Source: Bacteroidota bacterium
GTDB taxonomy: Bacteria; Bacteroidota; Ignavibacteria; Ignavibacteriales; Ignavibacteriaceae
Assembly (NCBI GenBank): GCA_021815405.1
Contig: JAKAGV010000003.1
Location: forward strand, 62,001 to 126,000
Length of the DNA stretch: 64,000 nucleotides
Direction: 5' to 3'
Within the stretch, counting starts at the first letter, position 1; each line of letters starts with the position of its first letter. Both the position numbers and the translations under genes were made by a program. The notes beneath the pieces are model-generated. The model was given only the letters and a program-made list of their open reading frames with translations, did no database searches and was not told the DNA's origin. Positions 29,227-49,226 of this stretch are shown one piece after another.

Positions 29227-30615
29227 TTACTCACCAAGAATCCTTAAGCCTTTTTTTGCATCCGGATTTTTAGGATCGAGCTGTAATACTTTATGATATT
29301 CGCGAATAGCATCTTCTTTATGGTTTGTTAATGCATACGCCTGAGCAAGCCATAAATGATATTGAGAATTACTCGGATCATACTGAAGTGCTTCTTTTAA
29401 TGGCTCAATTGACGGGGCATATTTTTTCTTAATAAGCAGCATAAGAGCTTTTGAGCCGTATGCATCTCCAAGAACAGCTTTGTTTTTATCCGGATCTTTT
29501 GAAGCCAAAGCAATTAATTTATCATAAGTATTTGCAGCAGCATCGGAGGAATCCATATACTGGTAAGTTTTGCCTAACCATTGGAGTGTAGGCATATATT
29601 CCGGTTTTATTTGCTCGGCTTCCAACAAAGAGATACGGGCACCATCATAGTTCTTTATTTGAACCATACAAAGAGCTTTATTTACATGAGCGCTAACTGA
29701 GGTTGAATCTGCTGATAATTTTCTATCATAATAAACTATTGCAGAGTCGTAGTTACCCGAACTGAAATACATATTGGCAACCGTCTCGGCTAAGGTAGAA
29801 ACAAAGGATGTATCTTTGTTAATGGCTTTCTTCAAATAGATTATTGCGAGCGAATCCATCTTCCCGTAATTATATTCTAGACCGATTTGTGCAAACTGCC
29901 TTGCTGTAATTAAAGAATCAGGAATTTGATTTAAATACTTTGACGCCTCATCTAATTTTTTATCGAAGACAAGAGATAATGCATATATACGTTTTAAATC
30001 CATATTATTAGGATTATTTTGTAATCCTTGTTGAGAAACCTGGACTGCATTATCAAAATTATTCATTAAGAAGAAAGAATTAGCTGCGTAAGAAATTGCC
30101 TTTTCGTTTTTAGGGTCAAATTTCAAATATTTATTGAGGTAGTATGCAGCGTTCGGGTACTGCTTTGCATAATAAAGAATTTCTCCAACCATCAAATAAG
30201 CAGGTGCATAATTCGAATCAATTGCAATTGCCTGCAAAAACTTATTCGCTGCATCGGTGTAGCTTTGTTCTTTGTATAAAGTTTCGCCTATTTTATATTT
30301 TAATTTAACATCTGTAGAATCTAATTTTTCAGCATGCTCATAATTGCTTAAAGCAAGTTCAGGTACATTCATTTTAGAATACGCGTCACCAAGGCTTTCG
30401 TAAGAGCGTTTATCGGACGTATCATGGGCAGTAAGGTCAACAAGTATTTTAACAGCAGTATCAGTTGAATCCTGCTTCAATACCTGGTTTGCTATGTTTA
30501 AAGCAGTTTTATAATCGCCTTTTTTAATAGCTTCTGAAGCTGCTTCATAACTGCTTTGGGCTAAACATAAGCCCGTAAATAAAACAACAAGAATGAGTGA
30601 TAATTTTGTTTTCAT
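29227..30615 (-). CDS. Secreted TPR-repeat protein
   Basis: The 462-aa protein has an N-terminal signal peptide (MKTKLSLILVVLFTGLCLAQ) followed by about ten consecutive tetratricopeptide repeats, recognisable by patterns such as APAYLMVGEILYYAKQYPNAA and SQYHLWLAQAYALTNHKEDAI, ending LDPKNPDAKKGLRIL. TPRs mediate protein-protein contact; it is probably periplasmic. It lies 14 nt after the PstS-like lipoprotein gene and is part of a set that in Bacteroidetes/Chlorobi genomes often accompanies ExbBD-TonB. The partner is unknown. Confidence 0.85.
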   Translation of the reverse strand: MKTKLSLILVVLFTGLCLAQSSYEAASEAIKKGDYKTALNIANQVLKQDSTDTAVKILVDLTAHDTSDKRSYESLGDAYSKMNVPELALSNYEHAEKLDSTDVKLKYKIGETLYKEQSYTDAANKFLQAIAIDSNYAPAYLMVGEILYYAKQYPNAAYYLNKYLKFDPKNEKAISYAANSFFLMNNFDNAVQVSQQGLQNNPNNMDLKRIYALSLVFDKKLDEASKYLNQIPDSLITARQFAQIGLEYNYGKMDSLAIIYLKKAINKDTSFVSTLAETVANMYFSSGNYDSAIVYYDRKLSADSTSVSAHVNKALCMVQIKNYDGARISLLEAEQIKPEYMPTLQWLGKTYQYMDSSDAAANTYDKLIALASKDPDKNKAVLGDAYGSKALMLLIKKKYAPSIEPLKEALQYDPSNSQYHLWLAQAYALTNHKEDAIREYHKVLQLDPKNPDAKKGLRILGE

Positions 30616-30629
30616 CTTTCTAATCCGGA

Positions 30630-31505
30630 TTATTGAGATTCGTTTATTTTAACTGGAACAGCCGCCGGAGCCAAGTTTTGACCCAGAGCTATTTTTTGAC
30701 CTTCATAACTTGTTAAGAAAGTCGTAAACCCGGAAGCAGGGCTCATTCCAATTTCATGCAGGAAAATGTACACCGTCTGCTTCAAGGGATAATATTCTTT
30801 TAACACAAATCCCGGATGCGGTGTAAAATAATTTACATTTAATCCGTTATTTGATGTTTGATTGCTTTCATTTTTTAATTGACCGACCTGGACAAAATGG
30901 ATCTTTGAAGAATCCTGAACTTGGTTGAAACTTACAATGCCAAGCACATCATTAAATTTCTCAACCTTACTCACTACATCTGAATCATTCTTAACTATCT
31001 GCGCATTTTTAGGATCCTGACCATTGAGCAATTCTTCTTTAATATAATTATACGTGCTTGTGGAATTGCCGGGAATAATAAAATTATAATTTCCAGATTT
31101 CCCTAAAAGTGCGTCTTTTATTTCATCAACCCTAATGTTGTCCGTCGTATTATTTTTAGAACCAATTATTGCTATTGCGTTATAGCAAAACTTAAATCTT
31201 TTTATGTCTAAATTCAGGCTGTCAATAAAATGGGACTCTCTATCATTGAAATATTGTGTACTTACAACCATCTTAACTTTGCCGTTTAGAAGGTCAAGAA
31301 TACATTGCAGCGGATTAACCTCATTTAATTTTATTTTAGCCTGAACATACAGAGTATCAAATACATCTTTTTCTTTTTTAATTATCGGATATACTGCACG
31401 GTCGACATCAACTACAACTGCGCCTTTTGTAGGCGTTACGTTGCTTTGCTGACATCCGGCAAAAATAAACAAGCATATAATCAGAACGCCGATAATTTTG
31501 TGCAT
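30630..31505 (-). CDS. PstS-like substrate-binding lipoprotein
   Basis: The 291-aa protein has lipobox FAGC (Cys18) and a periplasmic-binding-protein fold of the phosphate-binding type; segments include VVVDVDRAVYPIIKKEKDVF, GNSTSTYNYIKEELLNG (the anion-loop-like region) and the C-terminal ASGFTTFLTSYEGQKIALGQ common in PstS homologues. No PstABC transporter genes are in the window, so a classical ABC role is doubtful. Lying downstream of tonB with a TPR protein suggests a function in the TonB-dependent envelope system. Annotation as phosphate-binding is by similarity of pattern only. Confidence 0.75.
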   Translation of the reverse strand: MHKIIGVLIICLFIFAGCQQSNVTPTKGAVVVDVDRAVYPIIKKEKDVFDTLYVQAKIKLNEVNPLQCILDLLNGKVKMVVSTQYFNDRESHFIDSLNLDIKRFKFCYNAIAIIGSKNNTTDNIRVDEIKDALLGKSGNYNFIIPGNSTSTYNYIKEELLNGQDPKNAQIVKNDSDVVSKVEKFNDVLGIVSFNQVQDSSKIHFVQVGQLKNESNQTSNNGLNVNYFTPHPGFVLKEYYPLKQTVYIFLHEIGMSPASGFTTFLTSYEGQKIALGQNLAPAAVPVKINESQ

Positions 31506-31902: not shown

Positions 31903-32661
31903 TTACTGGTTAAGTTTGAACTTAAATGGTACTACAACCCAAACCATAACCGGTGCTTTATGCTGAATAGCAGGCGTGAATACGAACTTCATGGCTGCTT
32001 CAGTTGCCGGCTGGTTAAACACTTCGGAGTCGCTTTTAATAACGACTGCTTTCAAAGGTTTACCTTCTTTACTAACAAGAATTTTTACGTAAACAGTACC
32101 TTCAACACCAGCTCTTTTAGCAAGCTCTGGGTAAACCGGTACTGCTGAAACAACTACTTGAGGCATTTTTTCTACCGGTACAAATTCATTTATACCAGGA
32201 GTTTCATCCTCTTTCGGAGGTTCAACTTTCAAGTCTTGAGTAATCTTAACATTGCCGCCACTTCCTTCACCAATAGGGGCAGCAATTTTATTCATTTCTT
32301 GCTGCGTAGCAATTGTCTGTTCTTTCGGCGCTTCTGCATCAGGTACCGGAGTAGGAATGCCTACATTCGGTTTGATAGTTGGTGCTTGAACAGCAAGCTG
32401 CTGCGCGACATTTTGATCTAATGAAGGCGGTGGACCTAGTTCGCTGTATTTCAAAATTCTTACTGTAGCAATATTACTTTCATCATCTTTGTTGATAGCT
32501 TGGATGAAAATATATACGCCGATAAGAAGCAAATGAATAAGGACAGCAATTGTTAATCCAATGCCGTAATACTTTTGATAAAGCCTTTTAAGCTCAAAAG
32601 CTCCATATTGTTGATTTTGATCTTGGGCAGGCAAGTTTGCTGCAATTGTGTTATCGTTCAT
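31903..32661 (-). CDS. tonB: TonB energy-transducing protein (first set)
   Basis: The 252-aa protein has a short cytoplasmic head, a transmembrane helix (about 33-55), a proline-rich periplasmic spacer and a C-terminal TonB domain (PVYPELAKRAGVEGTVYVKILV; ATEAAMKFVFTPAIQHKAPVMVWV). It carries proton-motive-force energy from ExbBD to outer-membrane receptors. I start at ATG 32661 (MNDNTIAANLP) because AGGAGG lies just upstream; a longer start would overlap exbD. The exbB, two exbD and tonB genes are each separated by exactly 14 nt. Confidence 0.93.
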   Translation of the reverse strand: MNDNTIAANLPAQDQNQQYGAFELKRLYQKYYGIGLTIAVLIHLLLIGVYIFIQAINKDDESNIATVRILKYSELGPPPSLDQNVAQQLAVQAPTIKPNVGIPTPVPDAEAPKEQTIATQQEMNKIAAPIGEGSGGNVKITQDLKVEPPKEDETPGINEFVPVEKMPQVVVSAVPVYPELAKRAGVEGTVYVKILVSKEGKPLKAVVIKSDSEVFNQPATEAAMKFVFTPAIQHKAPVMVWVVVPFKFKLNQ

Positions 32662-32675
32662 CTTAAATCCTCCTT

Positions 32676-33176
32676 TCAAGACGCTTTCGATAAGAATTTC
32701 TTATCGGTATCTGTTAAAGGTGCAATTGAGAAACGATTCAAATCTGCAAGGTTCAATTTATCAATCACATCAACCATCATATGATATTTTGCTTTGCGAT
32801 CGAACTTAAGCAAAATAACCAGCTTTGAATTTTGGGTGCCTTTTTGTTTGAAAAAGCTTTCCAAACCTGTCATATCGATTGAATGAGGAGCCTTTTCAGT
32901 TCCTTCAGCATAATATATTTTATCGTTTTCGTCAACATACACCGTCATTAAATTTGACTCGGCAATATCAACTTTAGTTTCATTATTTGGAGGCAAGTTG
33001 ATTTCCATAGTCTGTTGTTTTCTCATTACGGTGGTAAGCATGAAGAAAGTCAGCAACAGGAATGCAACGTCAACCATTGGAGTCATATCCAATCGAACGC
33101 CCATTCTTCGCTTAGCATGTTTCTTTTTATGCCTTCCTCTTCCTCCGCTATCACCGCCGAGGTCTACTCCAGCCAT
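32676..33176 (-). CDS. exbD: ExbD/TolR biopolymer transport protein (second of the pair)
   Basis: The 166-aa protein has a charged basic N terminus (GGRGRHKKKHAKRRMG), a single transmembrane helix with the essential Asp in RLDMTPMVDVAFLLLTFFM, and a periplasmic domain. ExbD forms the rotor-like core within an ExbB pentamer that uses the proton gradient. The duplicate differs from the following ExbD in its N terminus and in its linker. Spacing of 14 nt on each side indicates tight co-transcription. Confidence 0.93.
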   Translation of the reverse strand: MAGVDLGGDSGGRGRHKKKHAKRRMGVRLDMTPMVDVAFLLLTFFMLTTVMRKQQTMEINLPPNNETKVDIAESNLMTVYVDENDKIYYAEGTEKAPHSIDMTGLESFFKQKGTQNSKLVILLKFDRKAKYHMMVDVIDKLNLADLNRFSIAPLTDTDKKFLSKAS

Positions 33177-33190
33177 TGTTTAATTCCTCT

Positions 33191-33667
33191 CTATTTACTT
33201 TTAGTATCTGTTATCAGATTAGTTATCATTGCAAATTTTGTTATCATAGTTTTTTGAAGAATATTCATGACATCTTCTACAGCACCATAGTCAGCGTCTA
33301 CATCGCCTTTAACTACAGTTCTAAGTCTCGGATTAGCAATACGAGCTTGAATAAGAAGATCACCAAGATTAGTCAAATTAACTTGAACTTCTCTTTTTAG
33401 TCTTGCTTTCTCGCCGAATAGCCGAGCCATAAGGTTTTGCTGATCGACGCCCATATAAATGTTACCTTGCTTATTGATATAAATTGTCAATATATCAGAG
33501 CTTGGCAGTTTAAAATCCGAGTGAGAAGAAGGTACTTCAATCTTTACCTCCTCGGGCGGGCTGAATTGCGTAGTCAACATGAAAAATGTGAGAAGCAAAA
33601 AAGCAACGTCCACCATTGGAGTCATATCCAATCTGACATTTATTCTTTTCTTTTTAATTCTAGGCAT
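33191..33667 (-). CDS. exbD: ExbD/TolR biopolymer transport protein (first of the pair)
   Basis: This 158-aa ExbD starts MPRIKKKRINVRLDMTPMVD, with the transmembrane Asp conserved in the MVDVAFLLLTF helix, then a periplasmic region (EVKIEVPSSHSDFKLPSSDI). Two ExbDs in tandem after one ExbB are common in this phylogenetic group and suggest heteromeric assembly, possibly with different periplasmic partners. It lies 14 nt downstream of exbB. Confidence 0.93.
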   Translation of the reverse strand: MPRIKKKRINVRLDMTPMVDVAFLLLTFFMLTTQFSPPEEVKIEVPSSHSDFKLPSSDILTIYINKQGNIYMGVDQQNLMARLFGEKARLKREVQVNLTNLGDLLIQARIANPRLRTVVKGDVDADYGAVEDVMNILQKTMITKFAMITNLITDTKSK

Positions 33668-33681
33668 TTCTAAGCCTCACA

Positions 33682-34461
33682 TTATTTCGTTTTAAGAATT
33701 TGAATTACGTTGTAGCTGGCTTCATCAACCGAGTAAGTAAAAGCATCGACTTTATTAACAAAAAAGTTATAGGCGACGATACCCATAATAGCAGTAATTA
33801 ATCCGCCTGCAGTGTTAATAAGAGCTTCTGAAATACCGATAGCGAGCTGTATAGCGTCTGGTGCACCGGCTCTTGCCATAGCTGCGAAAGCTCGGATCAT
33901 ACCGATAACAGTTCCGAGAAGTCCAACCATTGTTGCTATAGAAGCAATAGTAGAGAGAACGATTAAGTTCTTTTCAAGCATAGGTGTTTCTAACATCATA
34001 GCTTCTTCAACAGCTCTCTGAACTTCAGCTAACTGTTTTTCTGCTTCTACTGTTTTGCTTTTCTCTTTTAGTTCTTTATAGCGTGAAAGAGAAGCTTTAA
34101 TAACGTTAGCAACAGAACCTCTCTGTTTATCGCAAAGCTCGATTGCGCCGTCAAATTCACCGTTATCTAATGCAACAATAACATCCTTAAAGAAAGCTGC
34201 AACTGCTCTTTTTCCGCCGGCTTTTTTTAATGAAAAGGCTCTTTCGAAGATTATAGCTACGTCCATTATCGAAAGCATAATTAACAAAACTACCAGCGGA
34301 CCACCGGTATAAATTGTCGCTAATAAATTTCCTGCTAATGGTTGTTCGCGACCTACGCCATCAGCAAAGTTGGCTGGATTTCCAAAGACTTGTGTATAAA
34401 TAGCTAATGCTATTCCAAATGCAACTACCGTAAGGATAGTAATAAACACAGATTGTTTCAT
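33682..34461 (-). CDS. exbB: ExbB/TolQ/MotA-type proton channel protein
   Basis: The 259-aa protein belongs to the MotA/TolQ/ExbB family with three transmembrane segments: an N-terminal helix (about 5-25), a second near residues 47-70 and the conserved C-terminal pair (LIVLSTIASIATMVGLLGTVIGMI; AIGISEALINTAGGLITAIMG). The large cytosolic loop lies between. It is the first gene of the exbB-exbD-exbD-tonB set and its upstream region holds the palindromes and -24/-12-like promoter described separately. Confidence 0.93.
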   Translation of the reverse strand: MKQSVFITILTVVAFGIALAIYTQVFGNPANFADGVGREQPLAGNLLATIYTGGPLVVLLIMLSIMDVAIIFERAFSLKKAGGKRAVAAFFKDVIVALDNGEFDGAIELCDKQRGSVANVIKASLSRYKELKEKSKTVEAEKQLAEVQRAVEEAMMLETPMLEKNLIVLSTIASIATMVGLLGTVIGMIRAFAAMARAGAPDAIQLAIGISEALINTAGGLITAIMGIVAYNFFVNKVDAFTYSVDEASYNVIQILKTK

Positions 34462-34538
34462 GGGTTGTATATCTCCATCTTTTAATTTTATATTAAAAAA
34501 CTATTAATTAGTTAATTTATAATTAACGTTGCAAGAAA

Positions 34539-34554
34539 ATCAAACAACGTGCCG
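34539..34554 (-). promoter_or_regulatory. Candidate sigma-54 promoter of the exbB operon
   Basis: Read on the - strand, CGGCACGTTGTTTGAT matches the sigma-54 consensus TGGCACG-N4-TTGCW at the -24 GG, the CACG and the TTG, with mismatches at the first T and at the -12 C (here A). GG and the -12 dinucleotide keep the required spacing. Predicted transcription start is near 34528, about 67 nt before exbB. Needs experimental confirmation. Confidence 0.5.
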
Positions 34555-34653
34555 CAATATTATTTATTTTTGAGGTTATATAAAAGAGTTTTTTGCTATC
34601 GTTTTGAAAAAAAATGATTTTTTTAGCTTGATTTTGGAGATTTTTTCTCCAAT

Positions 34654-34670
34654 GATTTCAAAATGAAATC
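34654..34670. promoter_or_regulatory. Palindromic operator, copy 1
   Basis: GATTTCAAAATGAAATC is a perfect dyad with 7-bp arms and 3-bp centre. An identical copy lies 53 bp away (34707). Its centre is about 134 bp upstream of the predicted sigma-54 start, a typical enhancer distance. Confidence 0.6.
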
Positions 34671-34706
34671 TAATTTCTTAAATCTTTTATTTTTAACGGG
34701 TAATAG

Positions 34707-34723
34707 GATTTCAAAATGAAATC
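34707..34723. promoter_or_regulatory. Palindromic operator, copy 2
   Basis: The same 17-bp GATTTCAAAATGAAATC as at 34654; centre-to-centre distance is 53 bp, five helical turns, so both copies lie on one face of the DNA. Located between the response-regulator gene and exbB, which suggests binding by the neighbouring NtrC-family protein. Confidence 0.6.
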
Positions 34724-34865: not shown

Positions 34866-36194
34866 CTAAATCTTTAGCTCCTTGCGTTTGCGCCACAGCG
34901 TTGTAATAGAAATGCCAAGTATTTGAGCGGCATCTTTAGGGTTGGGATGAGTTTTTAAAATTTCCTTTATATAATCTTTTTCTACTTCATTTAATGAAGG
35001 TAAATAATTTCCGGCAGGCAGTTCGGCTCCCTGATAAATTTCCGGTGGAAAATATTCAGGTTTAATTATTTTATCTTTAGTTAACACTATGGCACGGTTA
35101 ATTGCATTTTCCAATTCCCGTATATTACCAGGCCAAGAGTATTCATTTAAAATTTTTAATGCTTCGGGTGAAAGCATAATTTCACTGTCGGGTGAATATT
35201 TGTTTATAAAATATTCAGACAAATACGGTATATCTTCTTTTCTTTCCTTCAGCGGGGGAAGTTTAATTCTTACACCGCTAAGCCTGTAATAAAAATCTTC
35301 GCGCAAATCGCCGGATTTAATATCATCGTCGATGTTTCTGTTGGTAGCGCTGATAATTCTTACATTAATTTTTCTTGTAATGCTTTCTCCAACGCGTTCG
35401 AACTCCATGCTTTGTAAAAAGCGGAGTAATTTAACCTGCATTGGTTTAGAAATTTCTCCAACTTCATCAAGGAAAACCGTGCCTTGGTCGCCCATTTCAA
35501 ATCTGCCAATTCTGTCTTTTAATGCGCCTGTAAAGGATCCTTTCATGTGCCCGAATATTTCGCTTTCGAATAAACTTTCAGGAATTGCGGCACAGTTAAC
35601 CGGCACAAACGGATTAGTTTTTCTTTTACTATTTAAATGGATATACCTGGCAAGAATTTCTTTGCCGGTTCCGCTTTCACCTTCGATTAAAACGGGGAGG
35701 TCGCTGTCTGCGATATCCTTGCAGAGCTTAAGTATCTCACGCATCTGAAAGTTGTTGGAAATAATCTCGCCGTTGCCCTCGGTATCTTCAACTTCAGCCC
35801 TTAATCCTTTTAATTCTTTAAGGAGAATATGATGCTCAAATACTCTATCGGCAAGATGAATAAACTCTTTATGAGTAAACGGCTTGGTAATATAATCATA
35901 AGCACCGCCTTTAATGGCTTCAACAGCAGTCTCAATTGTACCGTGAGCAGTCATCAAAACAGAAGTTGTATCTGGCGATATTTTTTTCAACTCGGCAAGA
36001 GTTTGAAGCCCATCCATAGGCTCCATCTTCAGATCGATAAAAGCAATATCAAAATAAATTTCCTGTGCTCTCTTCAGAGCCTCAACAGGATGACTGAAAA
36101 TCTCCGGGAGAAAATTCTGTGAACTCAACGAGAGTTCGATCATCTTCAGGATGTTTATCTCATCATCAATTACAAGTACTCGTCCTTTATTCAT
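34866..36194 (-). CDS. NtrC-family sigma-54-dependent response regulator
   Basis: The 442-aa protein has a receiver domain (phosphoacceptor Asp54 in AFIDLKM; Asp10/Asp11; Thr82; Lys104), an AAA+ domain with Walker A GESGTGKE (172-179), Walker B VFLDEV with Asp243, and the sigma-54 contact loop GSFTGA (219-224, one residue off the canonical GAFTGA), and a Fis-type helix-turn-helix at the C terminus (NPKDAAQILGISITTLWRKRK). Its start overlaps the kinase stop by 8 nt (ATGAATAA), so the two are coupled. The operators in front of exbB are its likely targets. Confidence 0.94.
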   Translation of the reverse strand: MNKGRVLVIDDEINILKMIELSLSSQNFLPEIFSHPVEALKRAQEIYFDIAFIDLKMEPMDGLQTLAELKKISPDTTSVLMTAHGTIETAVEAIKGGAYDYITKPFTHKEFIHLADRVFEHHILLKELKGLRAEVEDTEGNGEIISNNFQMREILKLCKDIADSDLPVLIEGESGTGKEILARYIHLNSKRKTNPFVPVNCAAIPESLFESEIFGHMKGSFTGALKDRIGRFEMGDQGTVFLDEVGEISKPMQVKLLRFLQSMEFERVGESITRKINVRIISATNRNIDDDIKSGDLREDFYYRLSGVRIKLPPLKERKEDIPYLSEYFINKYSPDSEIMLSPEALKILNEYSWPGNIRELENAINRAIVLTKDKIIKPEYFPPEIYQGAELPAGNYLPSLNEVEKDYIKEILKTHPNPKDAAQILGISITTLWRKRKELKI

Positions 36195-38055
36195 TTTGCC
36201 GGATCGGAATAGTTATTTCAAACTTACTGCCCTGACCCTGTTTACTCCAAACATTTATAGAGCCATGGTGCATTTCTATAATTTCTTTAGCGATAGTTAA
36301 TCCCAAACCAACGCTGCCAGGTTTGCTGCCGCTGACCTGAACAAATTTATCAAATATCTTATCAAGGTATTCCGGGCTAATACCTTTGCCGGTATCCGTG
36401 ATAGAAATTAGAACGTCAGATTTTCTTGCTTCCGCAGCCAACGAAATTTCTCCGCCTCTGTCTGTAAATTTTATCGAGTTGCCGATGAAATTTCCTATTG
36501 CTCTTAAAAGGTAATCATAATCCGCATGAATTAACGGAAGGTCGCCATTTCCCTGGTACGTTAATCTAATATTTTTCTCTTTGCACTGAAGCGAATATGA
36601 GTTGATACATTCTTTTAATAAGGAGCTAACGCTTACTGATTTTAATTCAAGCTTGATGCCACCTGACTCAATTCGCGAAAGCTCAAGAATTTCTTTTACG
36701 AGCTTGTTCAATCTGTCGTAGTCGGACTTCATCGATGAAATTAATTCTTTCTGTTTTTCAGATAAGTTTCCTACAACTCCATCACCTAAAATACCGACAG
36801 CCATTCCCATAGAAGTAAGAGGAGTCTTTAATTCATGAGATACTTTTGCTACGAATTCAGATTTAAGTCTGTCAAGCTCTTCATATTTTGTAATATCGCT
36901 AAAAACGATTAAAGCGGCATTAGCTGATTGAGTAACTTCGCGGAGGTCGTTACCGGGTAAATTGAGAAGCGAATATCTAAGCTTAAAGTACCTAATATTT
37001 CCCGCTGTATCTAGAGTTTGAAAAATATCTTCGTGATGGTTTTGAGAATTACCGCAAATATAGGTTCGGACATTGCCGCAAATTTTTTCGTCTCTTATTA
37101 AACTAGTCAGCAAGGAATGGTCATCAGGGGTTTTCCCAAACTCTGTTGTGAAAGCTTTATTAGCGAGCAAAATATGCATTTCGCTGTCGACCATTAAAAC
37201 GGGATCATTGATGCTTTCGATTATAATGTCCGATTTTCTTTTTTCGTATAATATTTTGTTGATGTTCAATTTCTCATAACGCTTTAGTCTTCCAACCATG
37301 CTGTTAAATTCATCGGCTAAAATTCCGATCTCGTCGGAATCTCCGGCAGGAATTACTTGATCGAAATTTCCGGCAGAAATATGTTTTACCGATCGTGTAA
37401 GATCTTTTACCGGCTTGACAATGAACTCAGAGAATTTAGTACTGAAGACTAAGCTTAGGACAGTTCCTAAAATTGCAAGAAAGAGCATAGTGAATGCTGC
37501 AATTCTAGTTATAGACTGAACGCTATCCTCAGCCCTCTGGATAAAATTATGGTTGGTTTCAAAGAGCTGATATAATTTAGCTTTTATATTATTGGCTAAA
37601 TTAATTGACTTAGTATAGTTATTCTGATTTTCGAGCTTATTTGGATAATTCATCGGGAAAGAGATAAGATAATTTATCTCAGTTACAAACAGCCTGTATT
37701 GATCGTTTAAACTATCAAGAATTGAGATCTCCTTTGTTGTGGAAGCTGCAACTCTAGCTCTCTCAAACCAATAAAAGAAATCCTGTTTTGCGGCATCAAA
37801 AGTATTATAGCCTTTCTCCCGATTATCACCTTTATAAATCATAAAAAGCCCGTTGATCTGGTTATCAAGAGATCGGACCATATTGTCGGTAGCAACGATG
37901 CTGGAATAGTTCTGAACAATAATAGCCCGAAATGATTCATTAAGCCGATTGAAATTATAAAGGCTCCAGATCATCACGCAAATCATAATCAGGATAACAA
38001 CAATGTATCCTGCCAGGATTTTCGCTCTAAGGGTTGTAAATAATGTTCTAAACAT
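36187..38055 (-). CDS. Membrane histidine kinase, KinB-like
   Basis: The 622-aa kinase has transmembrane helices at about 13-33 and 185-205 enclosing a helical periplasmic sensor, then a HAMP domain (206-258), a PAS domain (about 275-390), a HisKA dimerisation domain with phospho-His407 in FVAKVSHELKTPL, and an ATPase domain (N box IGNFIGNSIKF; G1 DTGKGIS; G2 GLGLTIAKEI). Arrangement resembles Pseudomonas KinB, whose partner AlgB is also NtrC-like; this is an architectural analogy. It is paired with the regulator that follows. Confidence 0.92.
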   Translation of the reverse strand: MFRTLFTTLRAKILAGYIVVILIMICVMIWSLYNFNRLNESFRAIIVQNYSSIVATDNMVRSLDNQINGLFMIYKGDNREKGYNTFDAAKQDFFYWFERARVAASTTKEISILDSLNDQYRLFVTEINYLISFPMNYPNKLENQNNYTKSINLANNIKAKLYQLFETNHNFIQRAEDSVQSITRIAAFTMLFLAILGTVLSLVFSTKFSEFIVKPVKDLTRSVKHISAGNFDQVIPAGDSDEIGILADEFNSMVGRLKRYEKLNINKILYEKRKSDIIIESINDPVLMVDSEMHILLANKAFTTEFGKTPDDHSLLTSLIRDEKICGNVRTYICGNSQNHHEDIFQTLDTAGNIRYFKLRYSLLNLPGNDLREVTQSANAALIVFSDITKYEELDRLKSEFVAKVSHELKTPLTSMGMAVGILGDGVVGNLSEKQKELISSMKSDYDRLNKLVKEILELSRIESGGIKLELKSVSVSSLLKECINSYSLQCKEKNIRLTYQGNGDLPLIHADYDYLLRAIGNFIGNSIKFTDRGGEISLAAEARKSDVLISITDTGKGISPEYLDKIFDKFVQVSGSKPGSVGLGLTIAKEIIEMHHGSINVWSKQGQGSKFEITIPIRQNE

Positions 38056-38284: not shown

Positions 38285-39526
38285 TTAAGAAATTTGTTGA
38301 ATGGACTGTTCGATAGAATTGACTTCAATTTTCGCTTTGATCTTTTTATAATATTTTAAGGCAGCCATAAAATAAGATTTGCTCTCATCTATATTGCGCA
38401 TTTCTTGATAAAGCGTTCCCAACTCCATAGATGTTTCGGCTTCATTAAGTTCATTATGAAGCTCCTTGTTGAGTCGTAAGCTGGTTAGCAGGTAACTTTC
38501 TGCGAGCTGGTGCTTACCAAGCTTTCGCTGAATAATTCCTTTAGTCTTATAAATGTCTGCAACAGAAAGCTTATCATTAGTGTCATGACAAATTTCAAGC
38601 GCTTTGTTTGCAAAAGCGTCGGCAAGATAAAAATCATTTTGAATCGTGTAGATAAATGCCTTGCTTAAATATGCCAAGCCGATCGAGGGCATATAACCGG
38701 TTTGCATTGAAATTGAAATGCACCGGTCAAATTCCTGAGTTGCATTTTTAAATTGATTTTTTTTGGTATATAGCATTCCAAGATTATGTCTAACTTCTGC
38801 AATTCGCTTTAGATCTTTTATCTTCTCGAAGTTTAAAAGAGCACGGCGGTAATAGGAAAGTGCATTCTCAAAGTCACCAAGTATGTTGTAAATAATGCCA
38901 AGGTTGACTGCGATTTTGCCAGTCAATGAATTGTCTCTTAGGCTTTCCAGAATTTCCAAGCTTCTTTCAAAATGTTCCTTAGCTTTTTTAAGATTTCCGA
39001 GATCCCCGTAAATAGTGCCCATTAAGTTTTCACAGTTTGCGCAGCCCTTTAGGTCGTTTAGCTTTTTAAATATGCTATATGCAGATTTAATATGCTTAAA
39101 GCTTTCATTCCAGTCTGCCTGTCTGCTGAATATTTCTCCCAAAGAAAATTCGGCAGAAGCAACCAGGTTTTGAAGTTCTTTTTCTTCCTTAATTTCTTTA
39201 ATTACTTTTTCATGAATATAGACAGCAGGAGTTGCATCACCAGCAGTAATAGAAAACTGTCCTAAGTGCAGAAGGAATTCGATAAATTTATATTTATCAA
39301 GTTTTAATTCTGCAAAGGTAATTAGAAGATCAATTTGTGATTTGTTATTGAGAAATTGTCTAGAGTCAAATTCGATTTGTTTTTTTGTATTTGAATCCAA
39401 AGGATAAGGTTTTGCAGAGCTTTCAACCGAAAGAAGTTTTGAAAGCTCTGCTAAATCCTTTTTATCAAAAAAATTCTTTAGGGTTTTTTCTAAAAAAACT
39501 TTCCCGTTTTCGTCAGTCGTTTTCAA
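38285..39526 (-). CDS. Cytosolic TPR-repeat protein
   Basis: The 413-aa protein lacks a signal peptide and consists of a short N-terminal region and roughly seven TPRs of the kinesin-light-chain/Rap type (ANCENLMGTIYGDLGNLKKAKEHF; AVNLGIIYNILGDFENALSYY; EVRHNLGMLYTKKNQFKNATQEF, each under a repeat register). Such proteins scaffold complexes or bind signalling peptides. It is transcribed towards the kinase genes, 229 nt upstream of them, so a link is possible but not shown. No enzymatic domain is visible. Confidence 0.82.
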   Translation of the reverse strand: MKTTDENGKVFLEKTLKNFFDKKDLAELSKLLSVESSAKPYPLDSNTKKQIEFDSRQFLNNKSQIDLLITFAELKLDKYKFIEFLLHLGQFSITAGDATPAVYIHEKVIKEIKEEKELQNLVASAEFSLGEIFSRQADWNESFKHIKSAYSIFKKLNDLKGCANCENLMGTIYGDLGNLKKAKEHFERSLEILESLRDNSLTGKIAVNLGIIYNILGDFENALSYYRRALLNFEKIKDLKRIAEVRHNLGMLYTKKNQFKNATQEFDRCISISMQTGYMPSIGLAYLSKAFIYTIQNDFYLADAFANKALEICHDTNDKLSVADIYKTKGIIQRKLGKHQLAESYLLTSLRLNKELHNELNEAETSMELGTLYQEMRNIDESKSYFMAALKYYKKIKAKIEVNSIEQSIQQIS

Positions 39527-48565: not shown

Positions 48566-49226
48566 GCTTCCTTTTCAATTCAAATGATTTTACAATTCTA
48601 ATTGTTTTCTGTATTGCTTCATCGTAAAGCGGCATACTAAGTTTAAGCCGTTTCATAAAATAATTGTAGAACATAACTGCTGGAACCGCCACAATCAAAC
48701 CGGCGGCGGTTGCAATAAGTGCATCTGCAATTCCACTCATTACGAGAGTATAATTAGATGAATTATTGATCGACAGAGCATTAAAAGATTTGATAATTCC
48801 TACAACTGTTCCGAACAATCCAATGAAAGGAGAAACTGCTCCAAGAGTTGCAAGAATTCCCAATCCCTTTTCCATCTTGGCAATCTCTTTATCGAGCTGA
48901 TTATATGAAGTGATTTCCAATTCATTCTTCGGATCTTTTGAATGCTCGATTATATGCTTAACAACATTTGCAAGCGGGCACTTAATTTTTACAAGAAATG
49001 AGTTCCATGTGCTTGTCTTACAAAGGAAAAGAGCTTCTTTGAAATCTTCTGATGTTAAACTATTATAAATGTTTTCCATGAACTCTGAAATTACCTTTTC
49101 AGTGATTCCTTTAAACAAGATATATTTTTCAATAATTACTTTAACAGATAGTAAAGAACAGAATGCAAGAATGAAAATTACATATCCGCCTCTTGCAATC
49201 AGGTCCAGCATACTATTATTATCCAT
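48552..49226 (-). CDS. exbB: ExbB/TolQ-family proton channel (second set)
   Basis: The 224-aa protein has three transmembrane regions: about 11-31, and the C-terminal pair (GLGILATLGAVSPFIGLFGTVVGII; GIADALIATAAGLIVAVPAVMFYNYF). It is shorter than the first ExbB because the loop after the first helix is smaller. It starts with ATG 49226, 53 nt downstream of the amino-acid transporter; no promoter could be defined in that gap. Confidence 0.92.
   Translation of the reverse strand: MDNNSMLDLIARGGYVIFILAFCSLLSVKVIIEKYILFKGITEKVISEFMENIYNSLTSEDFKEALFLCKTSTWNSFLVKIKCPLANVVKHIIEHSKDPKNELEITSYNQLDKEIAKMEKGLGILATLGAVSPFIGLFGTVVGIIKSFNALSINNSSNYTLVMSGIADALIATAAGLIVAVPAVMFYNYFMKRLKLSMPLYDEAIQKTIRIVKSFELKRKHETV

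Follow-up and report, generated by a model that had tools for sequence, protein, structure and literature searches.

The window, a 64,000-nucleotide stretch of DNA from a member of the Ignavibacteriaceae, carries on its minus strand a sensor histidine kinase gene and an NtrC-type response regulator gene, followed after a gap of 404 nt by exbB, two exbD genes, tonB, and genes for a PstS-like periplasmic binding protein and a TPR protein that form the conserved end of the cluster (Table 1). Within the gap lie two identical palindromes, a degenerate third one, and, closer to exbB, a sigma-54-type promoter element.

Table 1. Genes and candidate regulatory sites around the regulator-exbB gap, in window coordinates
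Feature	Position	Strand	Basis	Remarks
Sensor histidine kinase	36187-38055	minus	Pfam	Two membrane segments, sensor, HAMP, PAS, HisKA, HATPase_c
NtrC-type response regulator	34866-36194	minus	PF00072, PF00158, PF02954	Receiver, sigma-54 AAA+, Fis-type HTH
Degenerate third dyad, TTCCGATTTGAAA	34740-34752		Read from sequence	31 bp upstream of distal dyad
Distal candidate enhancer dyad, GATTTCAAAATGAAATC	34707-34723			Centre about -187 from predicted start
Proximal candidate enhancer dyad, GATTTCAAAATGAAATC	34654-34670			Centre about -134 from predicted start
Sigma-54-type -24/-12 element, CGGCACGTTGTTTGA(T)	34554-34540 (34539 with final T)	minus		CGGCACG-N4-TTGAT (GG-N10-GA)
exbB	33682-34461	minus	PF01618	MotA/TolQ/ExbB proton channel
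exbD copy 1	33191-33667	minus	PF02472
exbD copy 2	32676-33176	minus	PF02472
tonB	31903-32679	minus	PF03544; TIGR01352 above cut-off
PstS-like periplasmic binding protein	30630-31505	minus	PF12849; synteny	Conserved cluster end
TPR protein	29227-30615	minus	TPR models; synteny	Conserved cluster end

The joint occurrence of the proton channel family, two ExbD domains and a TonB domain identifies the operon as an ExbB-ExbD-TonB energiser, with an exbB that does not reach the exbB and tolQ equivalog cut-offs. As far as contigs extend, the genus and a second family keep the order kinase-regulator-gap-exbB-exbD-exbD-tonB-PBP-TPR, and the part from the kinase to tonB is also found in relatives of the Melioribacter/Stygiobacter type and in a deeper group of Ignavibacteria. 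One genome (G004) contains the full locus twice (L032, L038), each copy with its own dyads. In two relatives, G010 and G019, a second, diverged tonB follows the first (L036:4515-5249; L063:9602-10348). A second MotA/TolQ/ExbB gene elsewhere in the window (48585-49214, minus strand), 29% identical to exbB, perhaps belongs to a Tol system.

The regulator has the features of a sigma-54-dependent NtrC-family response regulator, including the AAA+ and Fis-type domains that a first-pass annotation of this DNA had ascribed to it. The phospho-acceptor aspartate of its receiver, in the motif IDLKM, is kept in all orthologues covering that position, the AAA+ domain contains Walker A (GESGTGKE) and Walker B (GTVFLDEV) motifs and the L1 loop GSFTGA, a form also found in other enhancer-binding proteins scanned, and the Fis-type domain (PF02954, E 8.1e-10) has the helix-turn-helix ISITTLWRKRK. 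Assignment as NtrC, AtoC, ZraR, GlrR or NtrX proper was rejected, as the protein falls far under every NCBIfam equivalog cut-off shown for these characterised members, with 410.6 for AtoC, its best score, against a cut-off of 714, and 363.8 for ntrC against 558.6. In the kinase, the PAS match is weak, and the first 260 residues give an all-helical AlphaFold2 model (mean pLDDT 75.8) with a predicted four-helix-bundle sensor, for which Foldseek returned NarQ, chemoreceptors and the KinB sensor domain with weak E-values (KinB: TMt 0.78, E 0.018, about 18% identity). The two-component system is probably envelope-sensing, with an envelope or nutrient cue as its probable signal. A further TPR protein gene (38285-39526, minus strand) immediately precedes the kinase, is kept in several congeners and may be part of the signalling unit.

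The two 17-bp copies of GATTTCAAAATGAAATC start 53 bp apart, just as the first-pass annotation had described them, and no third exact copy occurs in the window. Each is a 7+3+7 dyad, GATTTCA-AAA-TGAAATC, which reads GATTTCA-TTT-TGAAATC on the coding strand. The degenerate dyad TTCCGATTTGAAA sits where congeners have a better-preserved third dyad, at a spacing of 30-31 bp. A tandem pattern of two TTTCA-N3-TGAAA sites 35-50 nt apart has one match in the 4.97-Mb genome, while the reversed pattern used as a control has none. The longer form ATTTCA-N3-TGAAAT occurs at six places genome-wide, two of them in the gap and the other four inside open reading frames, leaving the gap upstream of exbB as the only place in this genome where the exact dyad stands outside reading frames. 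Across orthologous gaps, two dyads with at most one mismatch are present in 39 of 40, against about 0.5 expected from dinucleotide shuffles of the same gaps. The dyad pair in the regulator-exbB gap is thus real and beyond chance.

As inverted repeats 3' of a gene end, the palindromes could also be read as RNA hairpins at which the kinase-regulator mRNA ends or is processed. This is extremely improbable, as a terminator scan of the gap scored no terminator-like site, two or three palindromes recur at a constant spacing from the promoter, and it is the sequence rather than the pairing that is kept among relatives. Hybrid dyads of the form TTGCA-N3-TGAAA occur at the same place in Melioribacter-type loci (for example GATTGCAAAATGAAATC); their two arms no longer pair fully, a point against an RNA hairpin.

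The -24/-12-like element is located on the minus strand as the first-pass annotation described it. Taking its GG as -25/-24 places the predicted start near 34528, and recomputing the distances of the palindromes from this start gave the same values as before. The element has the -24 GG and ten bases to the -12 element; at -12 it has GA in place of the GC dinucleotide, the box being TTGA where the textbook form is TTGC. The sigma-54 architecture had been called complete, which is slightly overstated in view of the -12 box; rpoN is present in the genome (G000:C1:64298-64771). All 79 YGGCAY-N5-TTG(C/T/A) sites in the genome were classified as promoter-like if no reading frame covered them and an ORF began 15-200 nt further on; this applied to 2 of 19 TTGC sites, 9 of 23 TTGT sites and 12 of 37 TTGA sites. 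Because promoter-like sites with TTGA or TTGT are more numerous than those with TTGC, the TTGA of the exbB promoter is unremarkable in this genome, and the idea that it disqualifies the promoter was rejected. In one Melioribacteraceae-type genome (G052), for which 30 of 35 sites were read, TTGT leads, with 5 of its 10 sites promoter-like, and TTGG has 1 of 9. Sigma-54-like sites in G000 and G052 thus seem to favour TTGA/TTGT over TTGC at -12, and by eye such sites also precede genes reading like fliL-fliM and hsp20-dnaK.

A basal level of TonB function is usually required, and the main driver of exbB might accordingly be a housekeeping promoter, with the sigma-54 element as a conditional extra or a relic. 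The off-consensus -12 box would fit such an arrangement. Against it, a scan of the gap for sigma-70-type promoters, a range outside which the housekeeping promoters of Bacteroidota fall, found no site where 3.8 were expected by chance. Loci linked to the regulator also conserve the -24 element and its spacing to the dyads; every one of them has GG(C/T)A(C/T) at -24, about 52-93 nt before exbB or before an inserted STAS gene. The -12 box varies by group: the genus of the window has TTGA or TTGT, most members of the deeper group have TTGC or TTGT, and Melioribacter-type loci mostly have TTGG. Overall, a housekeeping promoter as the main driver appears unlikely, and sigma-54-dependent transcription of exbB is favoured.

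Conservation of the palindromes among relatives, which the first-pass annotation had named as a check along with rpoN, bears out the association of the dyads with the regulator: both the genus and a second family keep the pair between the orthologous regulator and exbB genes, and in a third group it is shifted in sequence. The tandem pattern was found in 12 of 59 related genomes and its reversed control in none; in 11 of the 12 it lies in the orthologous gap (this genome and ten others) and in the twelfth (G019) in a coding region; some relatives have a single exact dyad, or none free of mismatch. In most of the genus and several Melioribacter-type loci the dyad centres fall 134-139 and 184-194 bp from the predicted start, and other loci have a two-turn arrangement with centres at about 104-107 and 125-131. 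An exbB-alignment scan of 84,980 species genomes yielded 80 loci. Where 800 nt or more of upstream sequence was available, 36 of 37 loci with the regulator carry at least two dyads (at most one mismatch), versus 1 of 38 without it, counts of loci that share descent and are not independent samples, so that a Fisher test on them overstates the evidence. Where exbB orthologues lack the neighbouring regulator (G019, G032, G017, G018), neither exact dyads nor the -24/-12 element were found upstream. On one 5.1-kb contig (G027:C52, locus L064), which is probably misbinned, the sequence upstream of exbB closely resembles that in G045, a genome of another family.

The operator and the recognition helix of the regulator also differ together. 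In the deeper Ignavibacteria group (L109, L112, L114-L116, L118, L119, L122-L125, L136), where the regulator is 49-54% identical to that of the window, the dyads are TTGCA-N3-TGCAA, usually 75-79 bp apart, and the helix reads I(D/N)P(A/T)TLWRKRKKY versus IS(I/L/E)TTLWRKRK(E/L/Q) in the group of the window, classes that hold with two small exceptions after TTLWRK. The tree separates the TTTCA and TTGCA classes with full support, and since each operator class forms a clade of its own, the match between operator and helix may rest on one evolutionary event. In the deeper group the regulator and exbB are separated by a gene for a STAS-domain protein, which in L109 matches PF01740 (SpoIIAA/RsbV-like). 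The gene follows the sigma-54-type promoter, and an anti-sigma-antagonist-like protein may therefore be co-expressed with the TonB operon there.

The joint presence and absence and the joint change of operator and helix strengthen the link between regulator and dyads, and the latter points to the adjacent regulator as the likely binder, as judged from sequence comparison. The dyads could instead be operators of another DNA-binding protein that controls exbB, with the adjacent two-component system acting elsewhere; 29 NtrC-type regulators were scored in this genome, and binding by the adjacent one is itself inferred. Control by another protein is nevertheless quite improbable, given that exbB orthologues without the regulator lack the dyads, that the operator changes along with the recognition helix of this regulator, and that the exact dyad is found outside reading frames only in this gap.

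The favoured reading is that a dedicated two-component system very probably activates one ExbBD-TonB operon through sigma-54, and the connection between the two that the first-pass annotation proposed gains support from these comparative patterns. In the proposed circuit, the membrane kinase, with its periplasmic four-helix-bundle sensor, would phosphorylate the adjacent regulator, whose dimers would bind both TTTCA-N3-TGAAA dyads on the same helix face. The bound regulator would form an AAA+ ring and loop to sigma-54 RNA polymerase at the GG-N10-GA element, and ATP-driven remodelling would then start transcription from near 34528. The predicted transcript is exbB-exbD-exbD-tonB, probably continuing into the PstS-like and TPR genes.

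This layout resembles those of NtrC, ZraR and NorR, which likewise combine AAA+ and Fis-type helix-turn-helix domains with a -24/-12 promoter that is preceded, at about 100-200 bp, by two or three dyads; unlike in those systems, the target here is an ExbBD-TonB operon and the dyad is TTTCA-N3-TGAAA. KinB and AlgB are a kinase with two membrane segments, a four-helix-bundle sensor, HAMP and PAS, and its NtrC-type partner. The kinase of the window, with its predicted four-helix-bundle sensor, HAMP, PAS and HisKA and its NtrC-type partner, is similar to this Pseudomonas pair, but the sensor identity in the structural alignment is low and the linked target is a TonB operon rather than alginate genes; no KinB or AlgB family was among the best NCBIfam matches. 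The circuit thus appears to work like NtrC-type ones with a kinase built like KinB, yet is orthologous to none of the characterised families against which it was scored.

Computational work on Flavobacteriia has predicted sigma-54 promoters for TonB genes, a regulation that its authors call unconfirmed (PMC12316311). The present analysis goes beyond those predictions in identifying a likely activator, its candidate operators and promoter, and their joint evolution, in Ignavibacteria; with these pinned down, the question of sigma-54 control of TonB is reduced to a few bench assays. A literature search, mainly outside subscription journals, found no described two-component regulator controlling exbB via sigma-54, and no experimental study of the proteins at this locus. 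The setting is the little-studied Ignavibacteria, and the operon powers nutrient uptake across the outer membrane.

Finally, the Melioribacter-type orthologues differ in the L1 loop, which reads GAFT(N/T/H)A with the second glycine replaced (L094, L098-L102, L104-L108, L110, L113, L121), making sigma-54 activation less certain in these orthologues. In NorR, replacing the second glycine of GAFTGA with N gives an active, constitutive protein, and D, Q, S, C and M keep activity, while the remaining changes, including T and H, are non-functional (PMC2941729). According to one report (PMC7057263), the loop threonine senses the DNA immediately downstream of -12. The -12 boxes faced by the GAFT(N/T/H)A regulators are unusual (TTGG, TCGG, TCTC, TTTA). 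The unusual loop and unusual boxes could represent a matched change or shared descent, a statement about the Melioribacter-type loci that carries no claim about the window, and the loop as the cause of the TTGA in the genus was dropped, since TTGA and TTGT prevail genome-wide. Somewhat tentatively, the circuit may constitute a natural co-evolving series around one dedicated sigma-54 system, in which the operator (TTGCA-N3-TGCAA, hybrids, TTTCA-N3-TGAAA) changes with the helix and the Melioribacter-type loop (GAFTNA, GAFTTA, GAFTHA) with the -12 boxes of its apparent sole target. One regulator and one apparently dedicated operon with operator, helix and possibly loop shifting together would be useful for studying how enhancer-binding proteins switch specificity. 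In two Melioribacteraceae-type genomes, five of the 21 enhancer-binding proteins that were scored have GAFTDA, which weakens the idea that a changed GAFTGA loop is peculiar to this regulator; GAFTNA and GAFTTA are confined to it there.
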